DNA from: Planctomycetota bacterium
GTDB lineage: Bacteria > Planctomycetota > JACQVX01
Direction: 5' to 3'
DNA length: 33,748 bases
Assembly (NCBI GenBank): GCA_016209495.1
Contig: JACQVX010000210.1
Coordinates: forward strand, 1 to 33,748
Shown here: positions 2-32,764 of the stretch, in pieces
Numbering within the stretch: position 1 is the stretch's first letter
Layout: the number at the start of each line of letters is the position of its first letter
Notes under the pieces: model-generated
Databases searched by the model: none
What the model was told of the DNA's origin: nothing
The model's input: only the letters and a program-made list of their open reading frames with translations
Made by a program: the position numbers and the translations under genes

Positions 2-529
2 GCCGCCCCGGCCTCCCCGGACGCCGCGGACGGCCCCCCCCGCGCCTCGGCGACCGTCCCGGCCCTGGTGGAGCCCTCGGGATCCTCCCCCGGCGCCGCC
101 CCCACCACGACGCCCCCGCGGGCCCCGGGGCGCGCGGGCGGCGTACCGCCCCTGATCCTCGTGGTGGACGACGAGGCCTCGGTCTGCGAAGCCCTGCAGC
201 GGGTCTTCCTCTCGGGGGGCTACCGCGTGGCCACGGCCGACAGCGGGGTCGTGGCGCTCCAGGTCATGATGCGGGAGCCCCCGGACCTGGTCCTCCTGGA
301 CCTCCGTATGCCCATCATGGGCGGCCTCGAGGTCCTGGGCACCATGCGCTCCGAGGAGCGGCTGCGCCGGGTCCCGGTCCTCGTCCTCACCGCCGACACC
401 CAGAAGGAGAGCATCCGGGCGGCGGCCGCCCTCCGCGTCGCGGGCTATCTGGCCAAGCCGGCCGACCCGCGGGAGCTCCTCGCCCGCGCCGCCAAGGTCG
501 TGGGCGCCCGGTCGAGCCAGAAGGCGTAG
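2..529 (+). CDS. C-terminal receiver domain of an HDOD/REC signalling protein (5' end outside window)
   Basis: The reading frame is open from the window edge to TAG at 527-529. The first ~45 residues are a Pro/Ala/Thr-rich linker. A complete CheY-like receiver follows: VVDDE acidic pocket, phospho-acceptor Asp in LLDLRMP, LTAD switch residue and AKP lysine, so it looks phosphorylation-competent. An identical linker-plus-receiver arrangement ends each of the three paralogues downstream, so this is most likely the 3' part of a fourth copy whose HDOD part lies upstream. A GTG at 68 could open a free-standing receiver, but the frame runs through it without a stop and no good ribosome binding site is seen there. 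Its receiver is the most canonical of the array together with that of the gene starting at 2832. Confidence 0.8.
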   Translation, partial: AAPASPDAADGPPRASATVPALVEPSGSSPGAAPTTTPPRAPGRAGGVPPLILVVDDEASVCEALQRVFLSGGYRVATADSGVVALQVMMREPPDLVLLDLRMPIMGGLEVLGTMRSEERLRRVPVLVLTADTQKESIRAAAALRVAGYLAKPADPRELLARAAKVVGARSSQKA

Positions 530-541
530 GAGATTCCTCGG

Positions 542-561
542 GGCGGGGGTATAACCCCGCC
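542..561 (+). promoter_or_regulatory. Hairpin with embedded -10-like TATAAC, directly before an HDOD gene
   Basis: GGCGGGG (542-548) and CCCCGCC (555-561) form a perfect 7-bp stem around a 6-nt loop, ending 2 nt before the ATG at 564. The loop and stem edge contain TATAAC (550-555), a good -10 match only 8 nt before the ATG, but no convincing -35 is present. There is no T-tract for a terminator and no Shine-Dalgarno fits. It could be a near-leaderless promoter, a structure hiding the start codon, or both. Confidence 0.4.
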
Positions 562-563
562 TG

Positions 564-2819
564 ATGAAGTCCGCCCAGGACCGCGCGCAGCGCCGGGCCC
601 ACGTGCTCCTGGCCGACGGCAACGCGAAGGTCTCGTCCATCCTCGCCACGGCCCTGCGCCAGGCGGGGTACCAGGCCTCCCTGGCGGCCACGAGCCGCGT
701 GGCCTACCTGAAGGCGGTGCAGCTCCGGCCCGACGTGGTGGTGGCCGATGTCCAGCTCCCCCCGGAGGGGGGGGCCCGCCTGGCGGTCGCGCTCCGGGGC
801 CATCCCGTGAGCCGGCGGACCCCCCTCGTGCTGAAGGGCCTCCCGGGCGAGCCGCGCTGGGAGGAGGCCTTGAAGCGTGCCGGGGCCACGGCCACTCTGC
901 GGCGGCCCCTCCAGTGGGGCTCGCTGTCGGCCCTGCTGGAGGCGATCCTGCGGTCCTCCCACGACCGGCAGGCCGCCCCGGGCCGGCCACCGCCCCTGGC
1001 GGAGTCGGAGGCGCGCTCCGACGAGGAGCTGCTCCGCGACCCCGGGGCGATGCCCAGCGACAAGCTCCTCCGGATCGGCGCCCGGGTGAACCAGCTCGCG
1101 GCCTTCCCCTTCGTCGTCGCGAGGGCCCTGGCCATCTCCGACGACCAGAAGAGCGGGGCCCGGGACCTGGCCGAATGCATCCGCAGCGACCCGGGCCTCA
1201 CGGGCAACCTCCTCAAGCTGGCCAACTCGGTCCACTTCGCCCGGCGGGGCAAGGCCATCTCCGACATGGGAGAGGCCATTGTCCGGATCGGGTTCCGCGA
1301 GACCCGACGGCTGGTCCTGGCCATGCCCCTGGTGGAGATGTTCCCCCGCGAGGGGCGGAGCCGCGCCTCCGACCGGCTGGACTTCTGGCTCCACAGCCTC
1401 CTGGCGGCCTGTCTGGCCCACGAGCTGGCGAGGCGGGCCCGCCACCCGGCCCCGGAGGAGGCCTTCGTGGCGGGCCTCCTGCACGACATGGGCAAGCTGG
1501 TCATGGACGAGTGCTGGCCGGACCTCTACTGGGAGGTCCTGGAGCGCGCCGCGGAGGGCGACTGCCGCACCCTGGACGCGGAGCGCTCGGTCCTGGGCCT
1601 CACCCACGCCCAGATCGGCGAGACCATCATGGAGCGCTGGAACCTCCCCCGCTCCGTCCGGGACGCCACCCTGTACCACCACGAGCCGGAACGGGCGCGG
1701 GAGGCCCTGGGCGGGAAGGACCTGCTCCTGGCCCAGGTCCTCTGTCTCGCCGACCAGGTGGCCAAGGCCCTGGGCATCGGCGCCGCCGGCGACCGCTTCC
1801 TGGTGGATCCCCCGGCGGAGGCCTGGCAGGCGGCCGCATGCCCGATGGGCCTGAGGCTGGAGGACCTCGGGCCGGTGTTCCGCGAGGTCAACGTCTTCCG
1901 GGAGTTCCTGCGCCTGGGCGCCACGGAGATCGCCCCGGCCCGGGACACCCCCCACTCGCGCGCGAAGACCATCCTGCACCTGGACGAGCGGCGCCGGGCC
2001 GCCTCCCTCCTCAGGCTGGAGCTGGAGGCCCAGGGCTACACCCTCCGGGGCCTCGAGGACCGGGGCGACTCGCCGGTCGACCTGCTCCTGGTGGAGCTGA
2101 GCGACCGGAACCGGCTGGCCGAATACGAGGCCATGGTCGAGACCGGAGGGGCCGGGGGGCGAATCCCCCTGGTCCTCATCCGCGAGGACCCCTTCGAGGT
2201 GAACGAGGCGGACCGAGGCCACACGGCCTCGATCCGACAGCCCTTTGACGCCCGCGTCCTGGAGGGGGTCCTGGATACCCTCCTCCTGGGCCAGACCGTG
2301 GCCCGTCCCCCCCTGGTGAGTCCGGAGGTCCTGGCGGCCGAGGTGGAGGCGCTCCGCAAGGAGCTGCAGGGGAGGCTGGCGGCGCCACCGGCACCGGCAC
2401 CGCCACCGGCCCAGGCGCCAGCGCTGGCCGCGGCGCCGGGCCGGAAGTCCACGGTCCTGGTCCTGGACGAGCGGACGGAGTCGCGCATCGCCCTCATGAA
2501 GCTCCTCGCCTCGCGCGGGTGGCGCGTGGTGACCGCCGGGAGCGGCACCGAGGCCCTCCAGATGGCCGGCGATGTCCCCCCCGACCTCCTGATCATGGAC
2601 CTGACCCTCCCGGACATGGACGGCCTCGTCCTCCTGGAGGCGGTCCGAGCCGACGCGCGGCTGCGCGAACTGCCGGTCCTCATCTGCACCACGGTACGGG
2701 ACCGCGAGCGCATCCGGAAGGCCGCGGCTCTGGGGATCGCGGGCTACATTGCCCGGCCATCTCCGGACGACATCATCCTGCAGAAGGCGGCCGCCGCCCT
2801 GGCGGCGGCCAGCGACTAG
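564..2819 (+). CDS. HDOD domain protein with flanking receiver domains (paralogue A)
   Basis: This 751-residue cytoplasmic protein is likely a signalling scaffold. Residues ~10-130 are a receiver-like fold that keeps a possible acceptor Asp (ADVQLPP) but lacks the acidic pair and has Arg in place of the switch Lys (LRRPL). Residues ~165-375 are an HDOD domain with GLLHDMGKL near 306 and YHH near 370. Residues ~468-575 look like a second, degenerate receiver. An Ala/Pro linker (~605-625) leads to a C-terminal receiver (~628-749) with IMDLTLPDMDG but DE for DD and Arg for Lys (IARPS), so phosphorylation there is doubtful. HDOD proteins usually act through protein contacts in two-component, second-messenger or motility networks; the output here is unknown. 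The ATG at 564 follows a hairpin rather than a clear ribosome binding site. Confidence 0.85.
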   Translation: MKSAQDRAQRRAHVLLADGNAKVSSILATALRQAGYQASLAATSRVAYLKAVQLRPDVVVADVQLPPEGGARLAVALRGHPVSRRTPLVLKGLPGEPRWEEALKRAGATATLRRPLQWGSLSALLEAILRSSHDRQAAPGRPPPLAESEARSDEELLRDPGAMPSDKLLRIGARVNQLAAFPFVVARALAISDDQKSGARDLAECIRSDPGLTGNLLKLANSVHFARRGKAISDMGEAIVRIGFRETRRLVLAMPLVEMFPREGRSRASDRLDFWLHSLLAACLAHELARRARHPAPEEAFVAGLLHDMGKLVMDECWPDLYWEVLERAAEGDCRTLDAERSVLGLTHAQIGETIMERWNLPRSVRDATLYHHEPERAREALGGKDLLLAQVLCLADQVAKALGIGAAGDRFLVDPPAEAWQAAACPMGLRLEDLGPVFREVNVFREFLRLGATEIAPARDTPHSRAKTILHLDERRRAASLLRLELEAQGYTLRGLEDRGDSPVDLLLVELSDRNRLAEYEAMVETGGAGGRIPLVLIREDPFEVNEADRGHTASIRQPFDARVLEGVLDTLLLGQTVARPPLVSPEVLAAEVEALRKELQGRLAAPPAPAPPPAQAPALAAAPGRKSTVLVLDERTESRIALMKLLASRGWRVVTAGSGTEALQMAGDVPPDLLIMDLTLPDMDGLVLLEAVRADARLRELPVLICTTVRDRERIRKAAALGIAGYIARPSPDDIILQKAAAALAAASD

Positions 2820-2831
2820 GCCCAGGCGACA

Positions 2832-5219
2832 GTGGCCAACACCAACACCAACACCAAGCGCAAGAGGAAGTCTTCCGTCCACCTACTCCTGGCCGACGCC
2901 AGCGAGAAGGTCACGGCCATCCTCCAGGCGGCCCTGCGGCAGGCGGGCTACCAGGTCTCCCTGTCCACAGACACGCGCACCGCCTACCTGAAGGCGGTGC
3001 AGTTGCGCCCGGACGTGGTCGTGGTGGATGCGGCCCTCCCACCGGACGGGGGTCTGCGGCTCGTGCACACGCTGCGCTCCCACCCCATCTGCCGCTCCAT
3101 CCCGGCCATCCTCAAGGGGACCCCGCCCGAGCTTCTGGTCGGACCCGAGCTGGACGAGGCCGGGGTCCACGCCGCCCTCACCCGTCCCCTGCGTTTCTCG
3201 GAGCTGGTGGCCCGGCTGGAGGGGGCCCTGCGCTCCGTGCGCAAGTGCGCCCCCACGGACTCGGGTATCGCGGAGGCACAGGGTACCGGGGAGGGGGAGG
3301 CGGAGGACGCCGCGCTGCTACTGGACCCCAAGGCCCTGCCCAGCGTCAAGCTGGAACGGGTGTGCCAGCGGGCCCAGAAGCTGGCCGCCTTCCCCTTCGT
3401 CATCGCGCGGGCCCTGGCCATCACGAGCGACGAGCACGCCGGTGCCAAGGACCTGGCGAGCTGTATCCGGAGCGACCCGGGCCTGGCGGGGAACGTCCTG
3501 AAGGTGGCCAACACGGTGCACTTCGCGCGGCGGGGCCGGGCCATCACCGACGTGAGCGACGCCATCGTGCGGATCGGCTTCCGCGAGACCAAGCGCCTGG
3601 TGGTGGCCATGCCGTTCCTGCGCATGTTCCCGGCCCGCGCGCGGAGCCACGGCCTGGACCGGGTGGAGTTCTGGCTGCATTGCCTGGCGGTGGGCTGCCT
3701 GGCCGGCGAGCTGGCGCGCCGCTCGGGCTACCCGGCCCACGAGGAGGCCTTCATCGCGGGTCTACTCCACGACGTGGGGAAGCTCATCCTGGACGAGTGC
3801 TTCCCCGAGGTCCTGGACCAGGTCCTGGAACGCTGCACGGCCGAGCAGACCCGGATGGTGGACGCGGAGCGCGCCCTCCTGGGCATCGCCCACCCGCAGA
3901 TCGGTGAGATCCTGCAGACCCGCTGGAACCTCCCGCGGGTCCTCCGGGACGCCACCCTCTACCACCACGACCTGGGCCGGGCCTCGGAGGCCCTGAGCGG
4001 GGCCTCCCTCCAGCTCGCGCGGCTGGTGGACGCGGCCGGACAGGTGTCCAAGGCCCTGGCCCTGGGCGGGGCCGGCGACTCGGTCCTCGTGGACCCGGGC
4101 GAGGCGGTCTGGAGGTCCCTGGGGCTTCCCATGGGGCTCCGGCTGCGGGACCTGGAGGGGGTCTACCGGGAGTTGAACATGTACCGGGAGTTCCTGAGCC
4201 TGGCCACGGGCCCCATCGAGCCGCGCCGTGAGACGGAGGCCCGGCGGGGTTCCACGGTCCTCTGGGTCCGGGAGCGGCCCCAGGGCGCCTCGCTCCTGGA
4301 CCTGCTCCTGGAGGAGCGCGGCTATGGCGTCGTCCCGTTGGGGCGGCAGTCGGAGGTCCCCGTGGACCTGATCCTCGTCGAGGCCGAGGACATGGCACGC
4401 CTGGACGAGTACCAGGCCCTCGCCTCCTCCGGCCCCGAGGGCCGCCGGATCCCCCTGGTCCTGGTCTCCAGGGACCCCTACGAGGTGGCGGAGGAGGCCC
4501 GCGCCCACACGGCCTCTATCAAACGTCCGTTGGACGCCCGCGGCCTGGAGGGGGTCCTGGACACCCTCCTCCTGGGACAGACCGTGGCCCGGCCCCCGCT
4601 GGTGAGCCCGGAGGTCCTGCGCGCGGAGGAGGAGGCCCTGGAGCGGGAGGTGGCGGGCCGCCTGCGCGACTCGGCGGTCCGCCGCGGCGACTCGACCACG
4701 CGGATGCAGACGCTGCGCGCACCGGCGGCGGAGGCACCCACGTCCACAGCCGCGCCCGCGCCCGCTACCACGCCCGCGCCCGCGCCCACGCCGACGGCCA
4801 CGACCACGACCCCATCCGAAGCTGCACCCGGCTCACCGCACATGTCCACCGTCCTCGTGGTGGACGACAACCTGGCCATCCGCATCGCCCTGCAGAAGCT
4901 CATCGCCTCGGGCGGATACCGCGTGCTCACGTGCGCCAGCGGGGTCGAGGCCCTGGAACGGCTCCGCGCGGAGGCGCCCCAGCTCCTGGTCCTGGACGTG
5001 ATGATGCCCATGCTGGACGGGTTGCAGGTCCTGGAACAGCTACGCCAGGAGGAGCGGTTCCGGGGGCTCCCGGTGATCCTCTGCACCGCGGTGCGGGACA
5101 AGGAGCGGGTGGTGCAGGCGGCCCGTCTGGGCGTCTCGGGCTACATCGTCAAGCCCTTCGACCGGAAGACCATCCTCGCGAAGGTAGCCCAGGCGCTGGC
5201 GCCGCGGGGTGCGCCGTGA
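2832..5219 (+). CDS. HDOD domain protein with flanking receiver domains (paralogue B)
   Basis: This 795-residue paralogue of the preceding gene starts 12 bp after it, probably at GTG 2832, with an N-terminal Asn-Thr repeat from an AACACC tandem run. Domains are a degenerate receiver (~16-135; VVVDAALPPDGG kept, Lys replaced by Arg), HDOD (~169-380; GLLHDVGKL near 312, YHH near 377) and a degenerate receiver (~473-580). A long Thr/Ala/Pro linker (~616-670) and a C-terminal receiver (~672-790) follow. Unlike paralogue A, this last receiver has every hallmark: VVDD, VLDVMMPMLDG, CTA and IVKPF. A stretch at the end of the middle receiver (from about 4546) is almost base-for-base identical to paralogue A (from about 2260), which suggests recent duplication or gene conversion. 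Its role is inferred only from domains. Confidence 0.85.
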   Translation: MANTNTNTKRKRKSSVHLLLADASEKVTAILQAALRQAGYQVSLSTDTRTAYLKAVQLRPDVVVVDAALPPDGGLRLVHTLRSHPICRSIPAILKGTPPELLVGPELDEAGVHAALTRPLRFSELVARLEGALRSVRKCAPTDSGIAEAQGTGEGEAEDAALLLDPKALPSVKLERVCQRAQKLAAFPFVIARALAITSDEHAGAKDLASCIRSDPGLAGNVLKVANTVHFARRGRAITDVSDAIVRIGFRETKRLVVAMPFLRMFPARARSHGLDRVEFWLHCLAVGCLAGELARRSGYPAHEEAFIAGLLHDVGKLILDECFPEVLDQVLERCTAEQTRMVDAERALLGIAHPQIGEILQTRWNLPRVLRDATLYHHDLGRASEALSGASLQLARLVDAAGQVSKALALGGAGDSVLVDPGEAVWRSLGLPMGLRLRDLEGVYRELNMYREFLSLATGPIEPRRETEARRGSTVLWVRERPQGASLLDLLLEERGYGVVPLGRQSEVPVDLILVEAEDMARLDEYQALASSGPEGRRIPLVLVSRDPYEVAEEARAHTASIKRPLDARGLEGVLDTLLLGQTVARPPLVSPEVLRAEEEALEREVAGRLRDSAVRRGDSTTRMQTLRAPAAEAPTSTAAPAPATTPAPAPTPTATTTTPSEAAPGSPHMSTVLVVDDNLAIRIALQKLIASGGYRVLTCASGVEALERLRAEAPQLLVLDVMMPMLDGLQVLEQLRQEERFRGLPVILCTAVRDKERVVQAARLGVSGYIVKPFDRKTILAKVAQALAPRGAP

Positions 5220-5225
5220 TTCTCC

Positions 5226-5253
5226 TTGGACTGCCGCGCCGCGCCCCTACAAT
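5226..5253 (+). promoter_or_regulatory. Candidate sigma-70-type promoter before paralogue C
   Basis: TTGGAC (5226-5231), a 16-bp spacer and TACAAT (5248-5253, five of six consensus bases) lie in the 78-bp gap before the GTG at 5298. The predicted start near 5260 would give a leader of about 38 nt carrying the ribosome binding site. The 16-bp spacing matches other promoters in the window. The -35 matches only in TTG. Confidence 0.5.
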
Positions 5254-5297
5254 GCCCACCTTCGAGAGTCGGCCGGATTCGGGGCGGGGGAGTTGAC

Positions 5298-7634
5298 GTG
5301 GGCCGCACCAACGGCACCGATGCCAGACGGCGGGACGTCCACATCCTCGTGGCGGACCCGAACCCCAGGGTCAGCCAGATCCTGGACCTGGCGCTGCGGG
5401 AGCTGGGTTACGTGGCCCTCACCGCCGAGAACGGCGTGATGGCCTACCTGAAGGCCCTGCAGCTGCGCCCGGACGTGATCCTGGCCGACGCGGCCCTGCC
5501 GCCCTACGGCGGCGTGCGGCTGGCGGAGTCGCTGCGCGGCAACGCGGTCTCGGCACGCGTCCCCCTCATCATCAAGGTGCCCGGCGGCGACGAGCGCTGG
5601 GAGGAGGCGGCCCGGCGCGCGGGGGCGGCGGGGACCTTGGGCCGCCCGTTGCGCTTCAGCGAGTTCCGGCGCACCGTGGAGACCCTGCTCCGCGGCGCCG
5701 GCAAGGCCCCGCCGCTCCCGGGCGACGCCGAGGTCGACGCGGGGGCCGAGCACCGGGACGACATGGCCCTGTTGCGCGACCCGAAGGTCGTGGCCTCAGA
5801 GAAGCTGGACCTCATCGCCCGCCGGGCGAGCAAGCTCGGGGCCTTCCCCTTCGTGGTGGCGCGCGCCCTGGCCATCTCCAGCGACGAGAAGAGCGGCGCC
5901 AGGGAACTGGCCGAGGTCATCCGCAGCGACGTGGGCCTGGCGGCGAATATCCTGAAGCTGGCCAACACGCCCCACTTCGCCCGGCGCGGAAGGGCCATCG
6001 CCGAGGTGGCCGAGGCCATCGTCCGCATCGGCTTCCGGGCCACCAAGCAGCTCGTCCTGGCCATGCGGGTGGTGGAGATGTTCCCGCCCCGCGCCCGCAC
6101 CCGGGCCGGGGACCGCTCGGACTTCTGGCTGCACTCCCTCGCCACCGCGTGCATGGCGAGCCACATGGCGAGGATGGCCCGCTACGCGCAGCCCGAGGAG
6201 GCGTTCATCGCGGGGCTCCTGCACGACATCGGAAAGCTGGTCCTGGACGAGTGCTTCGAGGAACTCTTCCACGACATCGTGGAGCTGGCCGCCGACGACG
6301 GCTCCCGCACCCTGGACGTGGAGCGGGAGGTGATCGGCGTGGGCCACCCGCAGATCGGGAGCACCATCCTGGAGCGCTGGAAACTGCCTCGATTGATACG
6401 GGACGCGGTGCACTACCACCACGAGCCGGGACGCGCCTCGGAGGCCATGAGCGGCAACGACCTCGTCCTCGCCCGCCTGGTGAGCATGGCGGATCTCGTG
6501 GCCAAGGCCCTGGGCGCGGGCGGGTCGGGCGACCGGGTCATCCTCGAACCGACGCCTGAGGCCTGGCCGGAGGCGGGCCTGCCCCTGGGGATCCAGCGCA
6601 AGGACCTGGGTCCGGTCTACCGCGAGCTGAACATCTTCCGGGAGTTCCTCCAGCTGGGGGGCACGGAGATGGCGCCCCCCTGCGAAACCGAGGCCCGCAA
6701 GGAGGGTCGCATCCTCTACGAGGACGAGCATTGCCGCGAGGTCTCGGTCCTCCGGCTCTTCCTGGAGCTGCAGGGCTACACCGTCCTCGCCCCCGGTGCG
6801 CACGCAGGGGTGGAGGCGGACCTCTGCCTGGTGGAGGCGGCCTCGAAGGAGAACCTGGAATTCCTCCGGGCGAGGGCCGGTTCGGTGGGACCCGAGGGGG
6901 GCGCCGTCCCGCTGGTGGTGCTGGGGGACGGGCTGGGCCTGGAACGCCCCGGTCCCGACGGGGGCGGGGCGGAGGCCCGCCTGGGGCCCACGCCGCTGAG
7001 GGCCGCCTGCGACGCCCGCGTCCTCCAGGAGACCCTGGACACGCTGCTCCTGGGCAAGGCCGTGGAGCCGCCCCCCGTCATCCCCCCGGAGGCCCTGCGG
7101 GCGGAGGAGGCGGCCCTCCAGCGGGAGCTGAAACACCGGCTCCAGGCCCAGGGGCGGACGTCCGCAGCGCCCGCCGCGGTCACGACCGCGCACACGCCCA
7201 CGCCCACGCCCACGCCCACGCACACGCTCACGCTCACGCCCCCACCCCCGCCTCCGGCAAGACGCGCGGCCGTGAAGCCCCTGGTGCTCGTCGTGGACGA
7301 GGAGGCGCAGAGCCGCATAGGGATGATGCAGATCCTCTCGGCCCAGGGGCTGCGCGTCTCCACCGCGGCCAGCGGCCTGGAGGCCTTGCAGCTCCTGGGA
7401 CTCGAGCGTCCCTCCCTCGCCATCCTGGACCTGGGCCTCTCGGACATGGACGGCTTCCGGGTCCTGGCGCGCCTCAGGGAACCCGGCTCGGAGGTCCCGG
7501 TCGTCGTGTGCAGCCTGCGGAGGGACCGGGAGACCATCGTCCGCGCCGCGGGCCTGGGGGTGGTGGGGTACCTGGCCAAGCCCGTCAAGCCCGAGGCGCT
7601 CGCGGCGAAGGTCCAGTCCCTCCTGGCCCGGTAG
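5298..7634 (+). CDS. HDOD domain protein with flanking receiver domains (paralogue C)
   Basis: I place the start at GTG 5298, which follows a purine-rich GGCGGGGGAG site by about 5 nt and aligns the N terminus with the paralogues; an upstream frame-open TTG at 5226 overlaps the promoter. The 778-residue product has an N-terminal receiver-like domain (~13-132; LADAALPP kept, Lys lost), HDOD (~167-375; GLLHDIGKL near 308, YHH near 373), a divergent middle receiver (~468-588), a Thr-Pro/Thr-His linker encoded by CACGCC-type tandem repeats (about 7193-7255), and a C-terminal receiver (~661-778) with VVDEE, ILDLGLSDMDG and AKP, so probably still phosphorylatable. The 3' end overlaps a converging - strand gene by 50 bp. 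Confidence 0.85.
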   Translation: MGRTNGTDARRRDVHILVADPNPRVSQILDLALRELGYVALTAENGVMAYLKALQLRPDVILADAALPPYGGVRLAESLRGNAVSARVPLIIKVPGGDERWEEAARRAGAAGTLGRPLRFSEFRRTVETLLRGAGKAPPLPGDAEVDAGAEHRDDMALLRDPKVVASEKLDLIARRASKLGAFPFVVARALAISSDEKSGARELAEVIRSDVGLAANILKLANTPHFARRGRAIAEVAEAIVRIGFRATKQLVLAMRVVEMFPPRARTRAGDRSDFWLHSLATACMASHMARMARYAQPEEAFIAGLLHDIGKLVLDECFEELFHDIVELAADDGSRTLDVEREVIGVGHPQIGSTILERWKLPRLIRDAVHYHHEPGRASEAMSGNDLVLARLVSMADLVAKALGAGGSGDRVILEPTPEAWPEAGLPLGIQRKDLGPVYRELNIFREFLQLGGTEMAPPCETEARKEGRILYEDEHCREVSVLRLFLELQGYTVLAPGAHAGVEADLCLVEAASKENLEFLRARAGSVGPEGGAVPLVVLGDGLGLERPGPDGGGAEARLGPTPLRAACDARVLQETLDTLLLGKAVEPPPVIPPEALRAEEAALQRELKHRLQAQGRTSAAPAAVTTAHTPTPTPTPTHTLTLTPPPPPPARRAAVKPLVLVVDEEAQSRIGMMQILSAQGLRVSTAASGLEALQLLGLERPSLAILDLGLSDMDGFRVLARLREPGSEVPVVVCSLRRDRETIVRAAGLGVVGYLAKPVKPEALAAKVQSLLAR

Positions 7635-8173: not shown

Positions 8174-9997
8174 CTAGAAATCGAAGTGGACCCGGACGTG
8201 GTCGTTCGTGGGTCCGCCCGCGCCTACCTGCACGTTCTGCAGGGCCAGGCCCGGGACCAGGCTGAGCTGCACCCGGCTCAGGGACTGGCCCAGGATGGGG
8301 AGGGCGGGAGGCAGGGCCATGCCCACCAGGACCTGCACCCGCCGCTCGTCCACCGCCGCCACGGGCTGGTCCACCACGTCCACGTAGAAGGACGGGTCCA
8401 CGGCCCCGTTGAAGACCAGGGAGCCGTTCAGGACGCCCAGCTCCAGGCCGGCGCGCAGGTGGACCGCCACCGTGAGGACCTTCTCGTAGCCCGACCCCCG
8501 GTCCACCAGGACGTCCATGTGGACCTCGCCCCAGGCCACGCGGATGGGCCGCGGGTCCGCCGGGTCCATGAGGACCACCGGCGGCATGAGGGGGCGCAGG
8601 CGGAAGGCGATGGGGTCCGTGGGGCGGACCAGGGGCGAGAACTCCGGCAGGAAGCGGGTGAGCAGGCTCCCCTCCAGGCGCAGGCCTGTCCCGCCCGTGG
8701 CGCCAGGATTGCCGTTGCCCGCGAAGGTGCTGGCGTCGATGGTCTGGGCCAGGAGCCCCGCGCGCCAGGCGACGTAGAGGGCGCGGTTCACCAGGTCGTC
8801 GTCCAGGGCCAGCTCGGCCCCGGCGGCGGCCTGGAGGACCGGCGGCGCCCCCGCCGTCACGAGCGACCCGGGGCGCGCGGGCAGGGTGGGGTCGATGCCC
8901 CCGTCCACGTCCAGGCTCAGGTCCAGGAGCAGGCCGTCCGCGTCCAGGCGCGGCACCGAGCGCACGGAGCGGAAGCTCAACCGCCGGCCCTGCACCGTCA
9001 GGTCCATGGGCTGGCCCAGCCGCGCGACACCCTCGGCGACGATCCGGGCCAGGTCCTGGGTGAAGATGCGCCGCACGAAATCGGTGACGGCGGTCGAGAG
9101 GGGGGCCTGAAGGATCGACACCAGCCACTGGGGAAGTCCCGAGGCCACCTGGAAGCTCACCCCCTGGATATCCACCACGGGGTTGGTCATCTGGGCCTCG
9201 AGGCGCCCCGCGGCGTTCACCCCCACGGTGAAGGAGGCCGCCAGGTGCACGCGGGAGACCAGGGCCACGCCCCGGGTGTCGGGATAGCGCAGGCCGCCGG
9301 TGGACCGGGCCTCGAAGTCCAGCTCCATGTCCTGGGCCACCGCGTCCACCTCGAGGCGCCCGGCCAGGGGGGTCGCGCGCACCGACGAGCTCCGCGAGCG
9401 GGTGCCCAGGAGGTCCACCACGGTGGTGGTCACCGTGACTCCGGCCACCTGCAGCGGGCCCTGGAAGATGGGGTTCAGGGGCGAGAGGGCCCTCGCCAGC
9501 CCCGGCCCCGCGATCATCGTCTCCAGGCGCCGGGCCAGGGTGTCGAAGCCCCCGCGAGAGACACGCAGCTCCACGGCGCGCTCCACGGGACGGCCCGGGG
9601 CGTCGAAGTCTCCACGGAGGACGCCCACGCTGGTGTCCTGCTCCCCCCCGGGGAGCCCGCGGGTGCGGGCATGGATCACGTTGAGGCCCACCGCCAGCGG
9701 GACCGTCGCGCGCCAGCGCCCCGCCGGGTCCACCGGGACGACCTGCCCCCCCACGTCCACCTCGCGCACCGCGCGATCCAGGACCGTCCCCTCCACCACC
9801 GTCTGGGGGACGCCGAGGTGGGCGCCCCGCTCGGGGACGTCCACGCGCAGGGCCGGCGGCGCCGGCAGGGTGCGGGAGAAGGCCGCCGCCGAGCCCCGGC
9901 GGGGGGCCGCCCCCCACTTGTGATCGAAGCCCTCGGCGCAGCCCAGGACCCCCGCCAGGGCGAACCCCAGGGCCACCACGGCCTGCCCCGCGCGCAC
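8174..9997 (-). CDS. Large lipoprotein with N-terminal Ig-like domain
   Basis: The 607-residue product starts at GTG 9997, one base after the TAG of the porin gene upstream, so the two are likely translationally coupled. A hydrophobic leader ending VLGC (Cys20) marks a lipoprotein. Residues ~45-120 resemble a glucodextranase-B/Big-type Ig domain (VEGTVLDRAVREV ... VPLAVGLNVIHARTR). The remaining ~480 residues are rich in beta pattern with amphipathic stretches such as LARRLETMIAGPGLARAL and APLSTAVTDFVRRIF. They could be a lipid-binding TULIP (BPI-like) fold, which would suit a place beside FadL and a desaturase, but this is a weak impression. I do not recognise a specific family. Location is the inner leaflet of the outer membrane or the periplasm. 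Confidence 0.75.
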   Translation of the reverse strand: MRAGQAVVALGFALAGVLGCAEGFDHKWGAAPRRGSAAAFSRTLPAPPALRVDVPERGAHLGVPQTVVEGTVLDRAVREVDVGGQVVPVDPAGRWRATVPLAVGLNVIHARTRGLPGGEQDTSVGVLRGDFDAPGRPVERAVELRVSRGGFDTLARRLETMIAGPGLARALSPLNPIFQGPLQVAGVTVTTTVVDLLGTRSRSSSVRATPLAGRLEVDAVAQDMELDFEARSTGGLRYPDTRGVALVSRVHLAASFTVGVNAAGRLEAQMTNPVVDIQGVSFQVASGLPQWLVSILQAPLSTAVTDFVRRIFTQDLARIVAEGVARLGQPMDLTVQGRRLSFRSVRSVPRLDADGLLLDLSLDVDGGIDPTLPARPGSLVTAGAPPVLQAAAGAELALDDDLVNRALYVAWRAGLLAQTIDASTFAGNGNPGATGGTGLRLEGSLLTRFLPEFSPLVRPTDPIAFRLRPLMPPVVLMDPADPRPIRVAWGEVHMDVLVDRGSGYEKVLTVAVHLRAGLELGVLNGSLVFNGAVDPSFYVDVVDQPVAAVDERRVQVLVGMALPPALPILGQSLSRVQLSLVPGLALQNVQVGAGGPTNDHVRVHFDF

Positions 9998-9998
9998 G

Positions 9999-11468
9999 CT
10001 AGAACCGCCTCTCGTAGGAGACGAGGATCACGTCCTGCACCAGCTTCTGCCTCGCCCCGTCGGCGTCGGCGCTGGACCGGCTGGTCCCCGTGGAGATGGT
10101 CTCCTGCCAGGCGTGCTCCCATGCCAGGTCCACGACCCAGGCCTCGCGCCGGTAGCCCGCCCCCAGGGTCCCGTGGTGTTGGGCGAACCCAGACCCGCCC
10201 ACCAGGACCGTGTTCGCCGGCACCGGGTTCGTCCCCACGCTGTGGCCGCCGCGCAGGACCAGGCCGCTCGCGGACTCCCACTCGAGCCCCGCGGCCGCCA
10301 CGTACTGGTCGCGCCAGTGGAGCGGGATCCTCGCCGTGAAGTCGGGCCCGCCGTTGATCTCGTTCAGGTCCGGGTTGTCTCCCCCCTCGAGGCGAAAGAC
10401 CGCCTCGCGCATGGCCTGGGACCACTGGATCCACTTGGCCTCTCCCGAGGCGCGGAAGCCCCGGGGCAGGTCGCGGGCGAGGCCCAGGACGGCCTGGCGC
10501 GGGATGCGGAAGCCCTCCACCTCGAAGTCGTAGCGGGCCCGGCCGTCGACCCCCCCCGCGGGCAGGAAGGTGGAGAGGACGACGCTCTGCGCGGCCTGGA
10601 GGTCCCTCTGCAGGTTGGCGAAGCCCTCGGTGGCGTCCACCCGCGCCTCCCCTCGCACCGGGCCCACCAGGCCCAGGTCGCGGTAGGAGAGCCCGACCCG
10701 CGTGGCCCGGTCCGGCCGCCAGGCCAGGCCCAGGAGGGCGGTGCCCCCGTGGCCCCAGCCCTGGGCGTCCACCTTGAGCGCGGGGCCGCCGGGGCCACCC
10801 CCGGAGGCCAGGCTGAACAGCTCGGCGAAGGTGAGGGTCTCGCCGTTGATCCGGAGCGGCGTCCCGGAGGGCTGGATCCGGACGATCCCGCCGGGTCGCT
10901 GGGCCCTGGGGTCCCCGGCCCCGGCGCCGGAGCTGCCGGTCGCGACCCCACCGTCGGCCTCCACCTCGGCCCGGGTCGCCAGGTAGCGGAGGCCCAGCCC
11001 CAGGCTCAGCCTCTCCGAGACCCGGTAGGCGAACGAGGGGCCCAGGGAGGCGATGAGCAGCCCGCCCCCCGCGGCGCCCGGGTAGGCCCCGAAGCCCCAG
11101 CGCCAGCGATCCCCGTGGCCGTAGACGCTCTCGGGTTCGAAGACGGTGGCGAAGGTGGGGATGGGGTTCCAGCGCCCCGGTCCCCCGCGGCCGTAGCCGG
11201 CCCGCGGGGTCTGGTAGTAGGTCACGTCACGGCGCAGGCCCACGGCCACCTCGGTGGAGCCGGGCCCCATCCACCCGAGGAGGGCCGGGTTGGCCTCCTG
11301 GGCCGTGGCTCCGTCCCCCAGGGCCGCGTCGATGCCCCCGCGACCCCCCGCGCGGGCGTTGATGGCCACGGCCTGGGACCCGTTGGAGGCGGGGGAGGGG
11401 CGAACCGCCAGGGCCACGGTCAGCCCCAGGGCAGAGGCCCCGACCAGGGCGAGTCGCGCGAGGGCCAC
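9999..11468 (-). CDS. FadL/OmpP1/TodX-family outer membrane transport protein
   Basis: This 489-residue protein starts at GTG 11468. A signal peptide (~1-28) is followed by the FadL-type N terminus: SQAVAINARAGGRGG, then ALGDGATAQEANPALLG. The protein ends in YERRF with a C-terminal Phe, as expected for a BAM-inserted beta barrel. Repeated amphipathic strands (RVGLSYRDLG, RYDFEVEGFRIPRQAVLGLAR, GTLGAGYRREAWVVDLAWEHAW) fill the C-terminal half. FadL proteins carry long-chain fatty acids or other hydrophobic molecules across the outer membrane. The desaturase just upstream and the lipoprotein just downstream suggest lipid handling. The substrate cannot be told from sequence. A palindrome about 70-87 bp before the start may be an operator. 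Confidence 0.85.
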   Translation of the reverse strand: MALARLALVGASALGLTVALAVRPSPASNGSQAVAINARAGGRGGIDAALGDGATAQEANPALLGWMGPGSTEVAVGLRRDVTYYQTPRAGYGRGGPGRWNPIPTFATVFEPESVYGHGDRWRWGFGAYPGAAGGGLLIASLGPSFAYRVSERLSLGLGLRYLATRAEVEADGGVATGSSGAGAGDPRAQRPGGIVRIQPSGTPLRINGETLTFAELFSLASGGGPGGPALKVDAQGWGHGGTALLGLAWRPDRATRVGLSYRDLGLVGPVRGEARVDATEGFANLQRDLQAAQSVVLSTFLPAGGVDGRARYDFEVEGFRIPRQAVLGLARDLPRGFRASGEAKWIQWSQAMREAVFRLEGGDNPDLNEINGGPDFTARIPLHWRDQYVAAAGLEWESASGLVLRGGHSVGTNPVPANTVLVGGSGFAQHHGTLGAGYRREAWVVDLAWEHAWQETISTGTSRSSADADGARQKLVQDVILVSYERRF

Positions 11469-11537
11469 GCGGACGGCGGGTCGGCTGGGGACGATGGCGC
11501 ACTCTCCTCCCGGGGCTACCGAGCAAAGGCGCCACCA

Positions 11538-11565
11538 GGTTCACATTCGTGAACCAAAAAGTCAA
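11538..11565 (-). promoter_or_regulatory. Palindromic operator candidate overlapping a -35 region before the FadL-like gene
   Basis: GGTTCAC (11538-11544), a 4-base centre and GTGAACC (11549-11555) form a perfect 7+7 palindrome in the one AT-richer patch of this gap. Reading the - strand, TTGACT (11565-11560) lies immediately before it and would act as -35; 16 bp later comes TGAACC (three of six -10 matches), inside the palindrome. A repressor bound here would block such a promoter. The arm structure resembles a TetR-type operator, but no regulator of that kind is in the window. Confidence 0.45.
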
Positions 11566-11635
11566 GCCTATATCCGGGAAGGACATGGCGCGCCCGGGGG
11601 GAGCCCCCCCGGTACCTACGCAAGTCCCTGGGGTG

Positions 11636-12505
11636 TCAGGGATCTTGATACTGTAGAGACCGCGAGGCGGCGACGGTCGCCAGGGGTCGGAATCCGGGGC
11701 GAGCCGGGACGGTCACCCTGAGGCCCCGCGCCAGGCCCACCAGGGCCAGGGCCCGGATGAACCACCACCCGGGGTCGGGCTGGACCCAGTGCTCCCCCGC
11801 GTTGGCCGCGGAGGCATGGCGGTGGTGGTTGTTGTGCCAGGCCTCCCCCATGGTGGCCAGGGAAAGCCACCACACGTTGCGGGAGAGGTCCGGCGTGGCG
11901 TAGGTCCGGCTGCCTACCGTGTGGCAGACGGAATTGACGCACTGCGTCATGTGGAAGCAGAGGACGAGCGGGACGTAGATGCACCAGAGGGTGCCGCCCG
12001 GTCCCAGGGCAGCGAGGGCCGCCCCCAGGAGGAGGAGGTGCGGGAGGGCCTCATGGCGCTGCACCCAGGCCAGCCCGGGGTTGGCAGCCAGGTCCCGGGT
12101 GCCGACCAGGTAGTCGGCCTCCCGGTCCGACTTCGTCAGGATCCAGCCCAGGTGGGCCCAGAAGAACGAGTCCCGGGCCGAGTGGGTGTCCCGGGGCGTG
12201 TCCGCGTAGCGGTGGTGCAGCCGGTGACGCCCCGCCCACACCAGGGGCCCGCCCATGAGGGCCATGGCGTTCCCCCAGGCGAAGAGCGCCTCCAGCCATC
12301 TCGGCGAGCGGAAGGCCCCATGGGTCAGCCCCCGATGCAATCCGATGACGGCGCAGCCGCATGCCACGTAGAGCGGGATCATGACCCCCAGGTAGGCGGG
12401 CCGGAAGGGGAAGGCCAGCGCGCCGGCGGCGGCCAGGTGCAGGAGCGCCAGGAGCCCTGTGTTCGTCCAGTCGATGCGCGGCCGAGGACGTCCAGCCTGG
12501 ACCAT
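11636..12505 (-). CDS. Membrane fatty acid desaturase (acyl-CoA/acyl-lipid delta-9 type)
   Basis: This 289-residue diiron membrane enzyme introduces a double bond into fatty acyl chains. All three histidine boxes are present: HRGLTH (57-62), HRLHH (94-98) and HNNHH (224-228, in the characteristic EAWHNNHH context). The family motif around NSVCHTVGSRTY then SRN is also seen. Hydrophobic pairs (~17-58, ~76-90, ~157-190) fit four membrane spans. ATG 12505 is preceded by GGAGG at ~10 nt. It lies 92 bp after the response regulator and 167 bp before the FadL-like gene on the same strand, consistent with membrane-lipid remodelling under two-component or separate control. Positional specificity (delta-9) is an inference from family likeness. 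Confidence 0.9.
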   Translation of the reverse strand: MVQAGRPRPRIDWTNTGLLALLHLAAAGALAFPFRPAYLGVMIPLYVACGCAVIGLHRGLTHGAFRSPRWLEALFAWGNAMALMGGPLVWAGRHRLHHRYADTPRDTHSARDSFFWAHLGWILTKSDREADYLVGTRDLAANPGLAWVQRHEALPHLLLLGAALAALGPGGTLWCIYVPLVLCFHMTQCVNSVCHTVGSRTYATPDLSRNVWWLSLATMGEAWHNNHHRHASAANAGEHWVQPDPGWWFIRALALVGLARGLRVTVPARPGFRPLATVAASRSLQYQDP

Positions 12506-12597: not shown

Positions 12598-13308
12598 CTA
12601 CTGACGGACGAAGCGGTAACCCACCCCCCGGACGCTCTGGAAATATCGAGGTCTCGCCGGGTCCTCCTCGAAGTAGCGCCGGAGGCGGACGAGGAAGTTG
12701 TCCACGGTGCGGGTGACCAGGGCCCCGGTGACCCCCCAGGCCTCCCGGAGCAGCGTGGCCCGGCTCACCGCCTCTCCCTCCCGGGCCGCCAGGGCCCGGA
12801 GGATGGCCACCTCCCGGGTGGTGAGGGTCAGCTCGCGCCCGTCCGCCTTCCGCCCCCGGGCGGCCTGCAGGTCCACCTGCCAGTCCCCGATGCGGAGCAT
12901 CTCCTCCGCCCCCGCGGCCTGCCCCTCCAGCGCCGCCCGGTGCCACACCTGGCGCCGCAGGGCCACCCGCACGCGGGCCAGGAGCTCGTCCAGGTCGAAG
13001 GGCTTGGTGAGGTAGTCGTCCGCCCCCGACTCCAGCCCCTGGACCACGTCCTGGGGCAGGTCCCGGGCGGTGAGGAGGATCACCGGGGTGTAGATGCCCG
13101 AGAGCCGGGCCTCCCGCAGGACCTGGAAGCCGTCCTTCCCGGGGAGCATGACGTCCAGGATCACCAGGTCGTAGCGCTCCGAGCCCAGGCGCTCCAGGGC
13201 CCCGTCGCCGGTCCCCTGGGCATCCACGTCGTAGCCCGCGTTCCGCAGGTTATAGGCGAGGGCGCCGGCCAGGTGCTCCTCGTCCTCGACCAGGAGGACC
13301 CGCGACAT
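12598..13308 (-). CDS. OmpR-family response regulator
   Basis: The 236-residue product from ATG 13308 has a receiver (1-~120) with acidic pocket E8-D9-E10, acceptor D52 (ILDVMLPGKDG), T80 and K102 (TKPFD). The C-terminal winged helix (~140-236) ends in TVDNFLVRLRRYFEEDPARP and VRGVGYRF, typical of OmpR/PhoB DNA-binding domains. Its start lies one base after the kinase stop codon, so the pair is co-translated. It is the cognate partner of the kinase. The targets are unknown, but the desaturase gene immediately downstream is a plausible one. Confidence 0.92.
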   Translation of the reverse strand: MSRVLLVEDEEHLAGALAYNLRNAGYDVDAQGTGDGALERLGSERYDLVILDVMLPGKDGFQVLREARLSGIYTPVILLTARDLPQDVVQGLESGADDYLTKPFDLDELLARVRVALRRQVWHRAALEGQAAGAEEMLRIGDWQVDLQAARGRKADGRELTLTTREVAILRALAAREGEAVSRATLLREAWGVTGALVTRTVDNFLVRLRRYFEEDPARPRYFQSVRGVGYRFVRQ

Positions 13309-13309
13309 G

Positions 13310-14284
13310 CTAGACCGCCGCCGCCTCGCCCGCCACCGCCGGCAGCTCGATGCGGATCCGGGTCCCCTGGCCGCGGCCGGCGCTGGAGGCCGAGACCCGG
13401 CCCCCGTGGGCCTCGACGATGGTGCGCACGATGTAGAGCCCCAGGCCCGTGCCCTTGCGGCTCCGCTCCGGGTCTCCGTCCTCCACGCGCCAGAAGCGGT
13501 CGAAGACGCGCGCCAGGGCCCCCTCGGGGATGCCCAGCCCCCGGTCCTCCACCTCCACCACGGCCCTGAGCGGCCCCTCGCGGCGGGTCCGGAGGCAGAG
13601 CCGGCAGGGTCCGGCCCCCGCGTACTTGACCGCGTTGTCCGCGAGGTTGTCCAGGACCTGGCGGAAGAGGCTCGTGTCCAGCAGGACGACCCCGGCCCCC
13701 AGGGACTCCACGCGGACCTCCGGGGCGCCTTCCTCGCGGGCGTGGAGTGTCGCGAACCCCGCCGCGTAGTCCGCCAGGAACCCGTCCAGGTCCACCGCCT
13801 CCAGGGCGGGCCGGAGCGGCCGGGCGTCGAACTGGGCGGCCCGGAGCACGTTGGCGATGAGCCGGTGGAGCCGTTCCACGTCCTCGAGGATGGCGTCGAT
13901 GAAGCCCCCCCCCTCGGCGCCGGCCGGGGTGACACGACGCAGGGTCTGGGCCTGGAGCTTGATGGCGGACAGGGGCGAGTTCAGCTCGTGGGTCACGCTG
14001 GCGATGAAGTGGGATTGCTGCTGGTTGAAGCGGATCTCGGCGAAGAGCCGGGCGGCCAGGAAGCTGAGCAGGGCCACGATCGCCACCACCATGGCGGAAC
14101 CCAGGGAGAGGAAGGTCCAGTGGAAGGCCCCGCTGGACTCCTCCTCCCGCACGGCCATCTCGCGGATGCGCTGATAGTCGTGGACCAGGACCACGTTCCA
14201 GAGGACCCCCAGGGCCACCACCAGGACCAGGACCACGAGGAACAGGGCCACGGGGCCCGACAGGGTGCGGCGGCGCTCGGCCAT
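13310..14284 (-). CDS. Sensor histidine kinase
   Basis: I start this protein at ATG 14284, which gives 324 residues and a normal N terminus; the frame is open further upstream but runs antisense-like through the neighbouring gene. Two membrane helices (~11-33 and ~57-80) flank a periplasmic stretch of only ~22 residues, so sensing is likely within the membrane or indirect. HisKA carries phospho-acceptor H99 (SVTHELNSPL). The ATPase domain has N box DNLADNAVKYA, G1 DRGLGIPEG, F box FDRFWRVED and G2 KGTGLGLYIV. No HAMP or PAS domain is seen. It lies 47 bp after the PHP-domain lipoprotein gene and one base before its regulator. Confidence 0.92.
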   Translation of the reverse strand: MAERRRTLSGPVALFLVVLVLVVALGVLWNVVLVHDYQRIREMAVREEESSGAFHWTFLSLGSAMVVAIVALLSFLAARLFAEIRFNQQQSHFIASVTHELNSPLSAIKLQAQTLRRVTPAGAEGGGFIDAILEDVERLHRLIANVLRAAQFDARPLRPALEAVDLDGFLADYAAGFATLHAREEGAPEVRVESLGAGVVLLDTSLFRQVLDNLADNAVKYAGAGPCRLCLRTRREGPLRAVVEVEDRGLGIPEGALARVFDRFWRVEDGDPERSRKGTGLGLYIVRTIVEAHGGRVSASSAGRGQGTRIRIELPAVAGEAAAV

Positions 14285-14331
14285 GCGGGCGGATGGTAGC
14301 ACGCCCACGGCGTGGGGCCAGCGAACTACGT

Positions 14332-15816
14332 CTACCGGCCGGCGTAGATGGGGCTGGTGATGGCGCCCCGGCAGTAGCCCGGGTCCTTGAGGCTGGCGTT
14401 CAGGACGCGGTCCACGTCGTCCGGGAGGAGGACCGTCGGGAGCACGGTGCCCAGGTTGGTGTGGAGCGCGCCCCCCGGGACCATGACCGCCATTGCGGCA
14501 AGGGCCGCCCAGCGCTGGCCCGTCGCCTGGGCCGCCTGGAGCAGGGCCAGGTGGCGATTCCGCGCGGCGGGGTCGATGGCCTCGTAGACGTCCACCCGGT
14601 ACCAGTCGAGCGCCGCCGGGACGTCGCGCACCTCGGCGATGTGGTGCGGGCCGACGATGGCCTCGGTGTGCAGGACCTGGCCGCGCTTCACGAAGTCGAT
14701 GCGCCCCCCCGTCGCCCCCAGCACCTCCGCGCGGAAGACCACGGGGGCGCCGGGCGAGACCTCGTCCCCGATCAGCGCCTCGTAGACCCTGTCGCCGTCG
14801 CCGTCGGCCGCGAAGGTCACGAAGGGGCCCACGGGGGTGCGGGAGATGTAGGTACGGCCCTCGCGGATGGCGTCGAGGACGCCCTGGACGTCCCGGGAGC
14901 GGGCGTAGACATGGGTGGTGGGGCTCCCCTGGGGGAGCAGCATGTGCCGGTCGCCTCCGCCCACGGCCGTCACGCGCCGTCCGGAGTTCAGGTAGCTCTC
15001 CCAGAACGTCAGGGCCTGCAGGCTGGAGGAGCCGCGTCGGTCCGCCACGGCGGTCACGAGGTGCGGGTTCGGCGCGAGGCCGACCGCCGTGAGACCGAGG
15101 CCCGCCGCCTTGTCGTCCAGGTCCCGCTGCGTGCGGGGCGCCCAGGACCGCATGGACCACTGGCTGTGCCACACCTCGATGGCGTCGAAGGCCTTCGGGT
15201 CCACCACCCAGAGGTGGTTGCCCTCGTCGAGGGGGTGGTCGAGGACGAAGACCCCCCCCTGGGCGTGGACCTCATCGATGACGGCGTCGACCTCGGGCGC
15301 GAGGCCGGCGCCGCGCGTCCGGTAGTCGGGCTGTATGGGCCGGGTGAGGCCGATGGCCCCGGCGTGCATCCCGCTGCCCCACTCCATGCCCCGCAGGATC
15401 ACCATCCGCCCGGAGGTCGCGTCCGGGTCGGTGATGACGTCGTTGGTCCGGTGGTCGGTGATCGCCAGGAAATCCAGGCCCACGTACTCCGCCACCTGGA
15501 TGGTCTTGCGCGTCGGGTCCCCGCCCTGGCGCCGGGCGTCGTCGCTGTGGGTGGCGGTGTGGGAGTGGAGGTCGCCGCGCAGCCAGGTCCCGGGCGCGGG
15601 CTGCCGGGGCACGTGCGCGGGCGGGGCGGGGGGCGCTGGGGGCGCAGGGGGCGCAGGGGGCGCCGTGGAGGCAGGGGCCGCCGATGCGGCCCCCGGCGCG
15701 CCACCGGGGGGGCCTGCCGCCTGGACGGTGGTGCGCTTGCCGGCGCAGCCGGCCAGGGCGAGGGCCAGGGCGAGGACCGCGGCGGACACGACGGGGCCGG
15801 ATCGAGGACGAGCCAT
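14332..15816 (-). CDS. PHP-domain (CehA/McbA-like) metallohydrolase lipoprotein
   Basis: The 494-residue product from ATG 15816 (GGAGG-like site just upstream) has a lipobox LAGC (Cys24) and a low-complexity Pro-Pro-Ala repeat linker (~50-70) that holds the enzyme off the membrane. The catalytic part starts with RGDLHSHT, then AITDHRTND, VFVLDHP and GGGDRH. These are the metal-binding motifs of the PHP superfamily as found in CehA/McbA metallohydrolases. The family cleaves phosphoesters and, in characterised members, carbaryl and related esters; the natural substrate here is unknown. It heads the - strand group that continues into the two-component system and has its own clear promoter. Location is the periplasmic face of a membrane. 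Confidence 0.85.
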   Translation of the reverse strand: MARPRSGPVVSAAVLALALALAGCAGKRTTVQAAGPPGGAPGAASAAPASTAPPAPPAPPAPPAPPAHVPRQPAPGTWLRGDLHSHTATHSDDARRQGGDPTRKTIQVAEYVGLDFLAITDHRTNDVITDPDATSGRMVILRGMEWGSGMHAGAIGLTRPIQPDYRTRGAGLAPEVDAVIDEVHAQGGVFVLDHPLDEGNHLWVVDPKAFDAIEVWHSQWSMRSWAPRTQRDLDDKAAGLGLTAVGLAPNPHLVTAVADRRGSSSLQALTFWESYLNSGRRVTAVGGGDRHMLLPQGSPTTHVYARSRDVQGVLDAIREGRTYISRTPVGPFVTFAADGDGDRVYEALIGDEVSPGAPVVFRAEVLGATGGRIDFVKRGQVLHTEAIVGPHHIAEVRDVPAALDWYRVDVYEAIDPAARNRHLALLQAAQATGQRWAALAAMAVMVPGGALHTNLGTVLPTVLLPDDVDRVLNASLKDPGYCRGAITSPIYAGR

Positions 15817-17125: not shown

Positions 17126-17907
17126 TGGACCACGGGGACTACACCCGGCTGGCGGCCCACTATCACCACCGGGCGGGATACTCGCACCCGGTACTGGGCC
17201 TCATCCTCCGGCACATGGGGGCCTGGCCACCCCCGGTGGGTTTCCTCGCCGCCGACGTGGGGGCGGGGACGGGGAAGCTCACCCTGGACCTCCTGGACCT
17301 GGGCCTCGAGGTGGTGTGCGTGGAGCCCAACACGGCCATGCGCGCCGAGGGGGGACGAGCCACCGCGGGCCTGCGGGCGCGCTGGCAGGCGGGGAGCGGC
17401 GAGGCGACGGGGCTCGATACCACGTCGGCCGACTGGGTCCTCATGGGGTCCTCCTTCCACTGGACCGACCCCTCTCGCTCCCTCCCCGAGTTCCACCGCG
17501 TCCTCCGGCCCGGCGGGCACTTCACCGCCATCTGGAACCCCCGGGAGGTGGAGCGGAGCCCCTTCCACCTGCGCGTGGAGGAGCGCATCCGCTCCATCGT
17601 CCCCGAGCTCTCGCGGGTCTCCTCGGGCGGCGCGAGCTACACCCAGGGGCTGTTCGACACCCTGGTCTCCACGGGCCACTTCGCCGAGGTCGTCCTCCTG
17701 GAGGCCCGCCACGAGGTCGCCATGTCCAGGGAGAGATACCTGGGCTGTTGGCTCTCGGTGAACGACATCCAGGTGCAGGCCGGGCCCGAGCGCTGGCCGC
17801 GAGTCCTCGACGCCATCCGGGAGGAAGCGGCCGGCATGGACACCATCGTCACCCCCTACCGATCCCGCGCCTACACGGCCCGGAGGGTGGATGGCCACGG
17901 CGACTGA
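17125..17907 (+). CDS. Class I SAM-dependent methyltransferase
   Basis: The 260-residue product starts at ATG 17125 sharing one base with the kinase stop (TGATG). Motif I is ADVGAGTGKLTLDLL (~42-56), followed by VVCVEPN (acidic end of strand 2), the motif region DWVLMGSSFHWTD, and VLRPGGHFTAIWNP, as in Methyltransf_11/25 enzymes. A GTG at 17122 is an alternative start. It overlaps the next gene by 17 bp. In the C. jejuni phosphoramidate locus, putative methyltransferases (Cj1419, Cj1420) sit beside the kinase and are thought to supply the O-methyl group, so an equivalent role is plausible. The substrate cannot be read from the sequence. Confidence 0.88.
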   Translation: MDHGDYTRLAAHYHHRAGYSHPVLGLILRHMGAWPPPVGFLAADVGAGTGKLTLDLLDLGLEVVCVEPNTAMRAEGGRATAGLRARWQAGSGEATGLDTTSADWVLMGSSFHWTDPSRSLPEFHRVLRPGGHFTAIWNPREVERSPFHLRVEERIRSIVPELSRVSSGGASYTQGLFDTLVSTGHFAEVVLLEARHEVAMSRERYLGCWLSVNDIQVQAGPERWPRVLDAIREEAAGMDTIVTPYRSRAYTARRVDGHGD

Positions 17908-22515: not shown

Positions 22516-22618
22516 GGCGGCCGAAGGCCGCCGAGCGGGTGGGCGACCCCCCGGTAGAGGGTCGCCGTAGCGGCAGGCCGGCAGGCGGCGAGATGCACTC
22601 CCGATGCGGCGGGAGTGC
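22516..22618. repeat. Cluster of three perfect hairpins upstream of asparagine synthetase
   Basis: Three separate perfect inverted repeats lie in 103 bp. GGCGGCC-GAA-GGCCGCC is at 22516-22532, GCGACCC/GGGTCGC with a 9-nt loop at 22543-22565, and GCACTCCC/GGGAGTGC with an 8-nt loop at 22595-22618. They occupy the divergent gap between the coiled-coil gene and asnB (52 bp before its ATG). As RNA this could be a structured asnB leader or a set of protein sites. No known riboswitch class is recognisable. Confidence 0.55.
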
Positions 22619-22670
22619 GTAGGAATCGAACTCTCGCGTTCAGGCGGCGATGCGCCCGGGGACGGGACCC

Positions 22671-32669: not shown

Positions 32670-32707
32670 CGACATCTCCTGAGGAGTCGGGCGGGAAACG
32701 GGGCGCA

Positions 32708-32735
32708 ATTCTAGCGGGCGGGGTGGGGCAGTCAA
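32708..32735 (-). promoter_or_regulatory. Sigma-70-type promoter of the kelch lipoprotein gene
   Basis: TTGACT (32735-32730), 16-bp spacer and TAGAAT (32713-32708) on the - strand predict a leader of ~32 nt ending in the AGGAG site before ATG 32669. Confidence 0.75.
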
Positions 32736-32747
32736 AGCTCGTCGCCA

Positions 32748-32753: not shown

Positions 32754-32764
32754 GGTCCCCAACC

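Follow-up and report, generated by a model that had tools for sequence, protein, structure and literature searches.

The first 7.6 kb of a Planctomycetota contig carries, on the + strand, three complete genes for HDOD proteins and the tail of a fourth, arranged head to tail (Table 1), which raises the questions of how these genes are related, how many copies there are, how unusual their layout is and what such a row of signalling proteins might do. The window, by which we mean the whole stretch of 33,748 nucleotides that was analysed, is the entire contig C184 of a genome of 4.08 Mb (291 contigs, 86% complete). In the best reading of the data presented below, HDOD response regulators built of familiar parts have undergone a lineage-specific tandem expansion to form this array.

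Table 1. Array genes, their modules and repeats, and the nearest two-component gene pair. Coordinates refer to the window unless another contig is named.
Feature	Coordinates	Strand	Evidence
Copy 1, C-terminal part only: Ala/Pro/Thr-rich linker and receiver (155-490)	2..529	+	Pfam Response_reg, residue table
Copy 1, N-terminal receiver, HDOD and middle segment	contig C73 of the same genome, L002:2-1864	minus	sequence match, 57% identical to copy 3
Copy 2, complete, 751 aa	564..2819	+	open frame, Pfam, AF2 secondary structure
Copy 2 modules: N-receiver; HDOD; degenerate receiver; (short linker) C-receiver	603-929; 1095-1688; ~1968-2291; 2454-2783		
Copy 3, complete, 795 aa	2832..5219	+	open frame, Pfam
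Copy 3 modules: N-receiver; HDOD; degenerate receiver; (long linker) C-receiver	2886-3218; 3381-3971; ~4254-4577; 4851-5186		
GC-rich tandem repeat, periods 6 and 18, coding for the Pro/Ala/Thr linker of copy 3	4737..4808	+	TRF
Copy 4, complete, 778 aa from the probable GTG start at 5298	5298..7634	+	open frame, Pfam
Copy 4 modules: N-receiver; HDOD; degenerate receiver; (linker with 6-base repeats) C-receiver	5343-5678; 5841-6428; ~6723-7064; 7284-7613		
GC-rich 6-base tandem repeat, 12 x CACGCC, coding for the Pro/Thr/His linker of copy 4	7181..7252	+	TRF
HisKA/HATPase_c histidine kinase and OmpR-type regulator, side by side; two-component pair nearest to the array	12598-15172	-	

Pfam identified an HDOD domain (PF08668) in copies 2-4 with scores of 171-185 bits (E 1e-50 to 1e-54; cut-off 22.9), and the HDOD domain of copy 1, on contig C73, scored 177 bits. 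Response_reg matches to the whole proteins of copies 2-4, each comprising two receiver stretches, had E values of 2e-27 to 5e-39, and the receiver in the tail of copy 1 matched at 6.1e-26. When the N-terminal segments were scanned alone, all four copies matched Response_reg at 34.6-40.7 bits (curated cut-off 30.2). Chance is excluded as the source of these matches.

The four middle segments, following HDOD, gave no Pfam match, and the same was true of the equivalent segments of relatives; we therefore turned to profile-profile comparison. Using hhalign, the four middle segments were aligned to the C- and N-terminal receivers with probabilities of 72-83%, and once the corresponding segments of six further HDOD proteins, one of this genome and five of relatives, had been added, the probabilities were 97% (E 8.7e-11) and 94.5% (E 7.7e-8). 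Profile-profile scores were 33.6-64.1, compared with 14.7-19.5 for the best of 100 column shuffles per comparison and 9.8-16.1 for reversed and methyltransferase decoys. An AlphaFold2 model of the middle domain had the order strand-helix-strand-strand-helix-strand-strand-helix, corresponding to a receiver without alpha-2, and this EHEEHEEH order recurred in the full-length model. The top 50 Foldseek matches of the middle model were mostly receivers with E values above 0.03, none of them at E ≤ 0.001; given this lack of a significant match and a moderate pLDDT of 61, the model was used as supporting evidence only. The profile comparisons show that the middle module is receiver-derived, and the predicted fold is consistent with this, the structural part being weak when taken alone. 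The original prediction, which gave the domain order as degenerate receiver, HDOD, degenerate receiver, low-complexity linker and receiver, depended on the receiver nature of the N-terminal and middle segments. A domain search of each protein, in which Pfam located HDOD and the N- and C-terminal receivers and profile-profile comparison placed the middle segment, bore out this order, and the two segments came out as receivers or receiver-derived.

Receiver active sites were read from a single alignment of the 12 array modules and eight receivers of the same genome. The N-terminal modules, although receivers by Pfam, lack the full canonical active site in all four copies (D-[P/G/A/P]/D/[G,G,G,V]/R): each has the phospho-Asp and the first acid but has lost the second acid, the Thr/Ser (replaced by Gly or Val) and the Lys (always Arg). 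In every copy, the middle module carries Glu in place of the phospho-Asp and has lost the Lys, as far as an alignment across such remote homology can be followed; by this Glu the middle modules classify, in an equally alignment-dependent way, as Asp-less receivers (ALRs). Glu is the commonest replacement in ALRs, and a strong association between ALRs and HDOD effectors has been reported (PMC4395418); the middle modules of the array resemble ALRs in both respects. They are, however, more degenerate than typical ALRs, since they lie below Pfam detection, have lost the Lys and lack alpha-2 in the model, whereas the N-terminal modules, which keep the Asp, are not ALRs. The C-terminal receivers are canonical in copies 1, 3 and 4 (acidic pair, phospho-Asp, Thr/Ser and Lys), with D-D/D/T/K in copy 1, D-E/D/S/K in copy 4 and a fully canonical set in copy 3; in copy 2 the Lys is replaced by Arg. 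Because the phospho-site is kept in the C-terminal receivers and is degenerate in the N-terminal and middle modules, the tethered C-terminal receiver is, on these residues, most likely the phosphorylation input. The N-terminal receivers might still be phosphorylated on their remaining Asp, a point that counts against the explanation we prefer below.

The truncated first copy of the original prediction is real as far as its tail is concerned, but within the window it comprises only the linker and one receiver, and its HDOD half lies elsewhere. A search of the genome traced the rest of copy 1, from the N-terminal receiver through HDOD to the middle segment, to contig C73 (3,123 bases), which ends inside the linker; the window starts with linker and receiver, i.e., at the point where C73 breaks off. 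No overlap is shared between the end of C73 and that of the window, and we infer from their sequences that the two join as one copy 1 gene. As both contig ends fall in a linker of the kind coded by GC-rich 6-base repeats, such repetitive, GC-rich sequence is the probable cause of the assembly break within copy 1. Upstream of copy 1, C73 carries a same-strand Fe-S_biosyn gene (2.8e-17) and, beyond it, a divergent gene for a calcineurin-like phosphoesterase. Of the 10 HDOD matches that exceed the cut-off in the genome, four belong to the array, and the unmatched halves amount to one front half and one tail. Since a different gene, Fe-S_biosyn, precedes copy 1 and a single unmatched front half and tail were found, this upstream extension makes exactly four copies the simplest count, where the original prediction had said at least four, and a longer array was set aside.

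The array copies are 48-57% identical pairwise over their full length. Their HDOD cores share 65-67% identity with that of copy 2, compared with at most 39% for the other HDOD proteins of the genome, and in a phylogenetic tree the four cores formed one group with a support of 100/100 and a long stem (1.1 changes per column), in which copies 2 and 4 were sisters; two further rows of this group are duplicates of copy 2 from the window itself, which had been retrieved twice. With the C-terminal receiver of copy 3 as the reference, the receivers of copies 1 and 2 matched better than every other receiver in the genome, and therefore whole genes were duplicated as units. The original prediction of tandem paralogues, three complete and one truncated in the window, is thereby confirmed. 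The middle modules and linkers diverge fast between copies, and the middle segment of copy 4 is the most eroded. Elsewhere in the same genome, two GGDEF domains lie close together on the same strand (G000:C102:10340-12123); signalling genes of this bacterium may therefore more generally tend to occur as tandem copies.

The gaps between the array genes are short (34, 12 and ~78 bases), which suggests that the array is co-expressed. A scan of the array for sigma-70 promoters found no site, and a terminator scan of the same region found one terminator-like site only, at chance level. A stretch resembling TTGGAC–16–TACAAT before copy 4 (5226–5253) was spotted by eye; it lies under the threshold of the promoter scan and is not claimed as a promoter. 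The open frame of copy 4 runs from a TTG at 5226, but translation probably starts at the GTG at 5298 instead, just upstream of which is a G-rich run resembling a ribosome-binding site.

The original prediction also called the layout uncommon. In the set of genomes compared, this genome is the sole member of its class, and the other genomes searched share only its phylum. No HDOD region in 58 other genomes matched copy 3 at E ≤ 1e-60, and a contig search with copy 3 as a single query returned essentially receiver matches, with no convincing HDOD relative of the full layout. A profile built from the four copies found matches at E ≤ 1e-50 in 24 other genomes among 392 searched. Ten loci were examined in full (eight from relatives and two from this genome), and all had the order receiver(s)–HDOD–receiver-like; the extra C-terminal receiver was present in none of the ten. 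Proteins of the phylum (L045, L047, L048, L049, L051 and L062) and of this genome (L005 and L006) show the same core order as the array, including a receiver-like segment after HDOD that has no Pfam match, but they lack the tethered C-terminal module and occur at most two in a row. Tables of all HDOD places in 41 HDOD-rich genomes yielded seven pairs of neighbouring HDOD genes on the same strand, no more than 5 kb apart, but no three in succession. One of these pairs, in a relative (L073, G052:C174:1000-5600), consists of two receiver–HDOD–receiver-like genes in tandem, so that a small tandem duplication of the core has an independent precedent. The claim of an uncommon layout therefore has to be narrowed: the receiver–HDOD–degenerate receiver core is common in relatives and recurs at two other loci of this genome, whereas the tethered extra C-terminal receiver and the quadruplication are what is unusual, and neither was found in the relatives checked. 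A sequence search of solved structures found no protein with the four-module order of the array.

No partner kinase gene was found beside the array in the window, the nearest kinase gene being located at 13310-15172. At 8174-12505 (-), genes for a Glucodextran_B-domain protein, an outer-membrane protein resembling OMPP1/FadL and a fatty acid desaturase possibly make up a lipid-handling cluster that faces the array. Farther downstream are a 793-aa frame (17891-20272, +) with a partial PPDK_N match at its front and a PEP-utilising mobile domain at its end, very long open frames of 872, 1139 and up to 1824 aa (22604-30189, +), whose coding strand is uncertain at this high GC content, and a 957-aa frame with Kelch repeats (30198-33071, -). 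The frames at 22604-25222 and 25728-29147 had no Pfam match.

How might these proteins work? Like the REC-HDOD response regulators Xanthomonas GsmR and Desulfovibrio DVU0330, the array proteins have an HDOD output that follows a receiver within a single chain; they differ from those regulators in that the receiver at the N-terminus is degenerate and the probable phospho-input sits at the C-terminus, behind a flexible Ala/Pro/Thr linker. We lean towards a lineage-specific expansion in which the C-terminal receiver serves as the phospho-input and the degenerate-receiver/HDOD core as a protein-binding output, with inputs that have diverged between copies. Separate histidine kinases, encoded away from the array, would phosphorylate the tethered C-terminal receiver, which would then dock on, or leave, a rigid degenerate-receiver/HDOD/degenerate-receiver core through receiver-type faces, and this change in docking would alter the choice of partner bound by the HDOD core. 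The copies, having diverged, would respond to different inputs; their output may be a common one, possibly through the formation of hetero-oligomers.

A core that only binds proteins would not need metal ligands, and the apparently complete putative set in three of the four cores counts against a pure binding module. The putative HD-type ligands (pattern H...HD...H...HH...D), namely those of FWLH, the HD of LLHD.GK, the H of H.QIG, HH and the Asp of the next helix, are complete in copies 1, 2 and 4, and in copy 3 Gly takes the place of the last, an Asp. It is conceivable, though on balance rather unlikely, that the HDOD core is an active metal-dependent HD-type phosphohydrolase, acting for example on a nucleotide, in which the receivers gate catalysis and copy 3 is a dead regulatory paralogue. 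Besides the ligands, the Pfam HD family also matches copies 2-4 (1e-6 to 1e-12). HD-GYP phosphodiesterases have the HD fold and the ligand set in common with the array cores, but the alignment of the copies showed no GYP motif after the HH pair, its place being taken by [DE]-[LP]-[GE]-R in all of them, and Pfam reported HDOD and not HD_5. The closest solved HDOD sequences were 3hc1 (Geobacter), 3m1t and MmoQ (3p3q/3ljx), with E values of 2e-20 to 1e-23. MmoQ has lost the HD residues, whereas 3hc1 keeps the same ligands as the array, which speaks for a hydrolase and at the same time means that keeping HD ligands is not unusual for HDOD. Two described proteins argue against catalysis: the HDOD domain of SadB, which is described as being without catalytic activity (PMC6543031), and GsmR, described as having neither phosphatase nor phosphodiesterase activity (PMC4114195). 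GsmR is an imperfect analogue, since it lacks the active-site His while three of the array cores have all the putative HD ligands.

We regard as unlikely a second alternative, in which the HDOD cores are effectors of c-di-GMP or a related nucleotide and the ligand and C-terminal phosphorylation form an AND gate. The YbaK-HDOD protein SadB binds c-di-GMP with a Kd of 0.23 uM, but the portion of the source that describes this does not map the binding to HDOD (PMC6543031). A cyclic dinucleotide is probably made in this bacterium, because its genome has 16 GGDEF matches.

The original prediction that the copies form one integrating complex is a fair hypothesis with co-location as its basis. In a stronger version, the four copies would be a single hetero-oligomeric decision device, in which differently wired C-terminal phospho-receivers compete for a common receiver-like cradle, formed around HDOD by the degenerate modules, and copy 3 is catalytically silenced; we give this little credence, although, if true, such a device would amount to a receiver-to-pseudoreceiver logic unit of which the papers found give no description for HDOD proteins. 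Least credible is that the genes are neutral duplicates without distinct functions or are decaying, for while the middle modules and linkers diverge fast and the middle module of copy 4 is most eroded, every frame is intact despite only 48-57% identity, on which ground decay was rejected, and the conserved HDOD cores and C-terminal active sites point to purifying selection.

HDOD is a widespread signalling output whose mode of action is still unsettled. The array offers a natural comparative set for HDOD action and for the role of the adjoining degenerate receivers, in which variants with the same anatomy have diverged: three copies with every putative HD ligand against one without, and three with canonical phospho-inputs against one that is altered.
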